Positions 4,911-4,984 of a DNA stretch of 37,036 nt are shown here, in pieces. This DNA comes from Fibrobacteria bacterium AD312 (GTDB lineage Bacteria > Fibrobacterota > Fibrobacteria > Fibrobacterales > Fibrobacteraceae), in NCBI GenBank assembly GCA_001462345.1, contig LIUM01000029.1, forward strand, positions 1 through 37,036, read 5' to 3'. The number at the start of each line of letters is the position of its first letter. Positions within the stretch are counted from its first letter, which is position 1. The notes below the pieces were generated by a model that worked only from the letters and a program-made list of their open reading frames with translations, was not told the DNA's origin and made no database searches. Both the position numbers and the translations under genes were made by a program.

Positions 4911-4984
4911 TAGCGGGGGCAGGACTTGAACGCTGCGACCTTCGGGTTATGAGCCCGACGAGCTACCAACTGCTCCACCCCGCG
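4911..4984 (-). tRNA. Initiator tRNA-Met (anticodon CAT) with an extra T-stem base
   Basis: Read on the minus strand, the gene starts CGCGGGGTGGAGCAG and is very similar to bacterial initiator tRNA. The anticodon stem-loop is CGGGCTCATAACCCG with anticodon CAT and the three consecutive G-C pairs typical of initiators. Position 1 is C and position 72 is T, so the first pair is mismatched, another initiator hallmark. The discriminator is A and CCA is not encoded (the next bases are CTA). The oddity is in the T-arm: the 5' arm reads GCAGCG and the 3' arm CCTGC. If the standard G53 TTCAAGT C61 loop is kept, one C is bulged out, giving 74 bases rather than the expected 73. It could be a real bulge or a sequencing or assembly error. 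Confidence 0.93.

Follow-up and report, generated by a model that had tools for sequence, protein, structure and literature searches.

A bulged T-stem in the initiator tRNA of the Fibrobacter family, with counterparts in other bacteria and in phages

The single initiator tRNA gene that we located in Fibrobacteria bacterium AD312 carries one extra nucleotide in its T-stem, and this bulged initiator is almost certainly a real structural variant. Few RNAs are as conserved as the initiator tRNA, which is essential to the cell, and tRNA models and engineering assume a regular T-stem. That a bulge runs through a bacterial family in a sole gene copy, and has counterparts in Clostridia, actinomycetes and phages, shows that the T-stem rule is looser for initiators. 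Our search of the open-access literature found no account of a bacterial initiator whose T-stem is bulged. One survey covered 42,109 bacterial genomes and tallied anticodon-stem variants among 50,849 initiators; T-stem bulges are not treated in the portion consulted (PMC13092985).

The initiator gene and its T-arm

We analyzed a stretch of 37,036 nucleotides (the window), positions 1 to 37,036 of contig LIUM01000029.1. The features that concern the initiator are as follows:

4911..4984, minus strand: initiator tRNA gene (CAU), 74 nt without an encoded CCA, with C1-U72, A11-U24 and G29-G31/C39-C41
4919..4936, minus strand: T-arm of 18 nt (not 17), stem GCAG[C]G / CCTGC and loop TTCAAGT, from the sequence and the Rfam alignment
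4932, minus strand: extra unpaired C between position 52 (window 4933) and position 53 (window 4931), an Rfam insert on the 5′ side of the T-stem
5001..5029, minus strand: sigma-70-like promoter TTGCCA-17 nt-TATATA upstream of the tRNA gene, read by eye from the flank listing
4880..4907, minus strand: intrinsic terminator downstream of the tRNA gene, a 12-pair hairpin followed by a T-rich tail

Read 5′ to 3′, the gene consists of acceptor strand CGCGGGG, D-stem GAGC/GCTC, anticodon stem TCGGG/CCCGA, variable loop AGGTC and T-arm GCAGCG-TTCAAGT-CCTGC, followed by acceptor strand CCCCGCT and A73. ARAGORN called a tRNA-Met(CAT) at 4910-4984 on the minus strand. Scoring against a profile, a check proposed in a preliminary description of this DNA, gave 53.4 bits with the Rfam tRNA model (gathering threshold 29) and placed the insert on the 5′ side of the T-stem. 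The gene bears the marks of an initiator: a CAU anticodon with consecutive G-C pairs 29-41, 30-40 and 31-39, a 1-72 position that is not Watson-Crick (C1-U72), and an R11-Y24 D-stem pair present as A11-U24, the last read from the sequence. A formyltransferase (TIGR00460) scored over its cut-off in the same genome and in 37 of 41 genomes overall, and to judge from these sequence features the tRNA is presumably a formylated initiator. The preliminary description had remarked that C1-U72 departs from the common C1-A72; it does, but C1-U72 is the usual initiator mismatch in this phylum. The 1-72 letters vary across the phylum (C-U, U-U, A-A and C-A, in families f2 and f3 and genera g5 and g6 among others) and are always unpaired.

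The initiators of E. coli (metZWV/metY) and B. subtilis share with the window gene the CAU anticodon, the three G-C anticodon-stem pairs, an unpaired 1-72 position and A11-U24, as well as the same short D-loop. They have A72 and 73 nt to base 73, whereas the window gene has U72, 74 nt to base 73 and the bulged C. Fibrobacter-family initiators lack an encoded CCA and end in CTA or CAA (window 4908-4911); the initiators of most other families in the phylum encode CCA. At window 7924-8655, 3 kb from the tRNA gene, lies a Methyltransf_4 (PF02390) protein that we take to be, probably, the tRNA m7G46 methyltransferase TrmB.

The T-arm pairs G49-C65, C50-G64, A51-U63, G52-C62 and, beyond one unpaired C, G53-C61. 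A canonical T-arm has a bulge-free 5-bp stem and a 7-nt loop; here the five pairs and the 7-nt loop are present with an extra C between 52 and 53, for which we term the arm a variant. The preliminary description, whose sequence, coordinates and lengthened T-arm we found as described at window 4984-4911, had allowed either a bulged C or a C-C mismatch with a larger loop. We prefer the bulge, since all of these arms retain G53-C61 and a 7-nt loop, and set the C-C mismatch aside. Energy alone cannot choose between the bulge and an open four-pair arm, computed at -28.5 and -27.6 kcal/mol, respectively, so that the open arm is 0.9 kcal/mol worse. The minimum-energy fold of the bare strand is not a cloverleaf and was set aside. 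We also rejected a six-letter variable loop in place of the bulge, in which the shifted stem CAGCG/CCTGC would retain one Watson-Crick pair and one wobble of five pairs. ARAGORN draws the bulged T-arm in the wrong register, and bulged initiators therefore matter for tRNA gene finders.

The assembly of this bacterium spans 2.83 Mb in 50 contigs and is 99.3% complete. Only one of its 44 tRNA matches is an initiator, and the second tRNA-fMet that the preliminary description had advised looking for was not found in this genome. The other 43 tRNAs all have a regular five-pair stem and a seven-letter loop, with two wobbles at most, in one stem. With a single match, either the bulged tRNA starts proteins or a second gene went unseen. 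Our best explanation, that the bulged tRNA is the working and sole initiator of this bacterium and that its bulge acts on EF-Tu as set out below, is taken as a whole a little less than an even proposition.

Promoter and terminator, both claimed earlier, are present as TTGCCA-17-TATATA at 5029-5001 and a hairpin with T-tail at 4907-4880. A consensus promoter scan missed the boxes at 5029-5001 because its rule requires the second hexamer to end in T. By eye, relatives with the long arm have TTGACA or TTGCCA and TATATA-like boxes upstream of the gene and a hairpin with a T-run 3′ of it, in each case with different letters. Such recurrence with changed letters is as expected of a gene in use.

Distribution in the Fibrobacter family

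The family of the window bacterium includes Fibrobacter and was represented by 111 genomes in 11 genera. Fibrobacter sp. Horse_feces13, with its contig placed as in genome G091 of genus g2, identifies g2 as Fibrobacter. A search of 60 relatives recovered the gene with the insert, 100% identical, in 13 other genomes, covering six genera with that of the window included. An exact pattern that demands the insertion matched 86 of the 111 family genomes (50 of 56 good ones) in 9 of 11 genera. All 86 long arms share ..AGGTCGCAGC-GTTCAA, an agreement in stem and insert far closer than chance would produce. In all nine genera the bulged stem is the same: the ten stem letters and the C are identical in 86 of 86 long arms, while position 59 in the loop is either A or G and pairs in other parts of the gene differ.

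A length-tolerant pattern, accepting both arm lengths, matched 139 of the 167 phylum genomes over which it was run. Among these matches the 86 long arms all fall within the Fibrobacter family; matches outside it are regular without exception. Regular T-arms also occur in nine family genomes, all of genus g5, and 16 of the 111 gave no match (three of these being g5). Thus the regular relatives that the preliminary description would have counted against a true variant are confined, within this largely bulged family, to g5. The 98 family genomes outside g5 comprise 86 with a long arm, none with a regular arm and 12 or 13 without a match; two good genomes, G070 (96% complete) and G096 (100%), are among the family members without any match. 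The nine regular g5 arms reduce to three stems, with A51-C63 (four genomes), with U50-G64 (three) or fully paired (two). Initiators of family f2 have an unbulged, fully paired T-stem.

These data bear on the options that the preliminary description had left side by side, a real variant, a decayed second copy and an indel error. The first stands. That the insertion reflects faulty sequencing or assembly, or the decay of a gene copy, is now so improbable that it can be dismissed: the same letter occurs in 86 genomes, outside a homopolymer and in the sole copy, the promoter and terminator are kept here and in relatives, and phages carry copies. None of the signs of a tRNA pseudogene (lost stems, a lost promoter, a better second copy) was found.

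Bulged initiators in other bacteria and in phages

We scanned the genomes of 84,980 species for initiators whose T-stem has a sixth letter on a strand that should have five, using insertion patterns that detect extra letters on the 5′ side, and obtained at least 120 hits. Among the 120 hits listed, the insertion falls at 51/52 in 111 (T in 66, A in 44, C in one); five, all Fibrobacter, have a C at 52/53 instead, and the remaining four belong to neither type. Most come from Clostridia MAGs; Alistipes and other Bacteroidales MAGs, Streptomyces, Actinacidiphila, one Pseudomonadaceae MAG and one Parvarchaeota MAG are also present. The initiator of the Parvarchaeota MAG reads AGCGGAG...CTCCGCT (A1-U72, archaeal style) and has a U bulge between 51 and 52. 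The earlier assertion that bacterial tRNAs almost never tolerate such an insertion holds for the elongators examined, regular in 43 of 43 cases in the window's own genome, but fails for initiators.

Clostridia-type initiators resemble that of the window in having one extra unpaired nucleotide on the 5′ strand of the upper T-stem. They differ in site and letter, with A or U at 51/52 against C at 52/53 in the Fibrobacter family. It is very likely that the T-stem bulge arose more than once across bacteria. In the 111 arms with the 51/52 insertion, positions 49-65, 50-64 and 51-63 are mostly paired, in several Watson-Crick forms, and 52-62 and 53-61 are always G-C. The compensating letters at 49-65, 50-64 and 51-63 support a five-pair stem with a bulge.

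Of 25 genomes that we checked, 24 matched. Twenty have bulged copies only, and the other four, all Streptomyces-type, have three regular initiators and one or two bulged ones. In these four the regular copies contain G49-U65 and the bulged copies are fully paired. Across 61 sampled genomes of the anchor's Streptomyces-type genus, the anchor alone has a bulged copy; for 247 Bacteroidales genomes, the bulge is again limited to the anchor among the matches listed. A sample of the Clostridia class (391 genomes around one MAG) includes at least 13 bulged genomes, the anchor among them, and most are regular among the matches listed.

We compared stems for weak pairs. None was present in 89 of the 111 arms with a 51/52 bulge, as against 44 of 107 regular Clostridia arms, taken from the matches listed, with one-genome rows of the same stem collapsed by hand and with the rows related to one another, for which reason we place no reliance on the p value computed for this contrast. 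In the sampled Clostridia, 14 bulged stems divide evenly, 7 having no weak pair and 7 keeping U50-G64. The notion that a bulge takes the place of a weak T-stem pair is partly borne out, with some uncertainty.

Viral contigs with the pattern numbered 23, of which 8 have a 52/53 bulge, 12 a 51/52 bulge and 3 neither. On six phage contigs that hold tRNA arrays, the initiator is 93-95% identical to that of the window; the bulged letter is C in four and T in two, and other positions vary. Hence, these phages preserve the insertion although the inserted base differs among them. On these six and two further phage contigs, 129 tRNAs include a long arm in eight initiators only, and one tRNA-His arm with four of five pairs. 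Six viral contigs (L244, L252, L253, L254, L258 and L263, one of them 422 kb long) hold up to 36 tRNAs in 15 kb together with a window-like initiator. From gene similarity, our guess is that the tRNA-array phages infect Fibrobacter or its kin.

The variety of bulges also speaks to a processing alternative, in which a post-transcriptional step takes out or edits the C and the mature tRNA is regular. The C or U of the phages, and the A or U that other bacteria have at the neighboring site, would all need removal, and we know of no bacterial activity that removes or edits such a T-stem nucleotide. We consider this explanation very improbable.

Possible EF-Tu avoidance, competing explanations and the origin of the bulge

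According to a review, the affinity with which EF-Tu binds a tRNA varies with T-stem pairs 49-65, 50-64 and 51-63 (PMC11231383). Natural T-stem changes let tRNA-Sec and cell-wall tRNA-Gly escape EF-Tu (PMC9976931). Both tRNAs offer partial likenesses to the window gene. Bacterial tRNA-Sec, with a 12-bp acceptor-T stem and one bulged nucleotide, is likewise a specialized tRNA with a natural bulge that avoids EF-Tu, but its bulge lies mostly in the acceptor stem, and it is another tRNA that uses another factor, SelB (PMC5330540). The Staphylococcus cell-wall tRNA-Gly has a T-stem changed to escape EF-Tu, as the window's may be; its change is a base-pair replacement without insertion, in a non-initiator (PMC9976931).

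By analogy, we tentatively favor the explanation that the bulge lowers EF-Tu binding further and thereby helps to keep the initiator out of elongation, or else costs nothing. An initiator would enter the P site directly with IF2, with no need to fit EF-Tu. Sitting at the edge of the T-stem surface formed by 49-65, 50-64 and 51-63, the bulge would weaken EF-Tu binding beyond its existing level, and the weaker binding would hold the initiator back from elongation or at least be costless. The cell would accordingly make and use the initiator with the bulge in place. We lean to this explanation because full pairing is commoner in the 51/52-bulged arms and because of the Streptomyces-type copies. 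Several observations pull against it. The f2 stems show that a weak T-stem is not required; half of the bulged arms in the class sample, in related rows, retain U50-G64; the bulge lies above 51-63, outside the three affinity-setting pairs; and formylation and the 1-72 mismatch already disfavor EF-Tu.

Relaxed constraint fits almost as well and is a close rival. An initiator skips EF-Tu and the A site, and a neutral bulge could have drifted to fixation and been kept by the slow evolution of tRNA, which we rate as a possibility of roughly one in three. The restriction of bulges to initiators where examined (in the window's own genome and on the phage contigs) agrees with such drift, as do the coexistence of regular and bulged relatives within one family and within one class and the formylation and 1-72 mismatch that already set initiators apart from elongators. 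Drift sits less well with the use of only two adjacent sites and of restricted bases (A or U at 51/52, C or U at 52/53, among 5′-side patterns), and with a bulged stem frozen in nine genera.

A third explanation, that the bulge tunes the fit to another partner (IF2, ribosomal P-site proteins, T-arm modification enzymes) or confers resistance to a tRNA-cutting defense, appears unlikely. A G51-G52 T-stem motif, in the same stretch as the bulge, enhances IF2 binding according to the same review (PMC11231383), and phages retain the bulge in their own initiator copies. Against it, a comparison of presence only revealed no change in a partner, IF2 being present in 26 of 26 genomes, bulged and unbulged alike.

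Returning to EF-Tu avoidance, a family with bulged and regular genera, and single Streptomyces-type genomes with both kinds of copy, provide a natural experiment on it. A broader version, in which a class of bulged initiators was gained independently several times, with the bulge as an anti-elongation mark (or as IF2 tuning) that the phages of such hosts share, is a more doubtful proposal.

We built trees to place g5. In the IF2 tree the family forms one clade (support 99/98), with g5 placed near the family base but without support (53/16). Adding rpoB, found in 21 of the 26 genomes and entered as gaps for the remainder, again gave one clade (100/100) and an unsupported position of g5 near the base (70/33). 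One gain after the divergence of g5 and a basal gain followed by loss in g5 fit about equally. The rpoB match splits in two near model position 550 in the Fibrobacter family, unlike in most outgroups, pointing to a long rpoB insertion near that position in the family.
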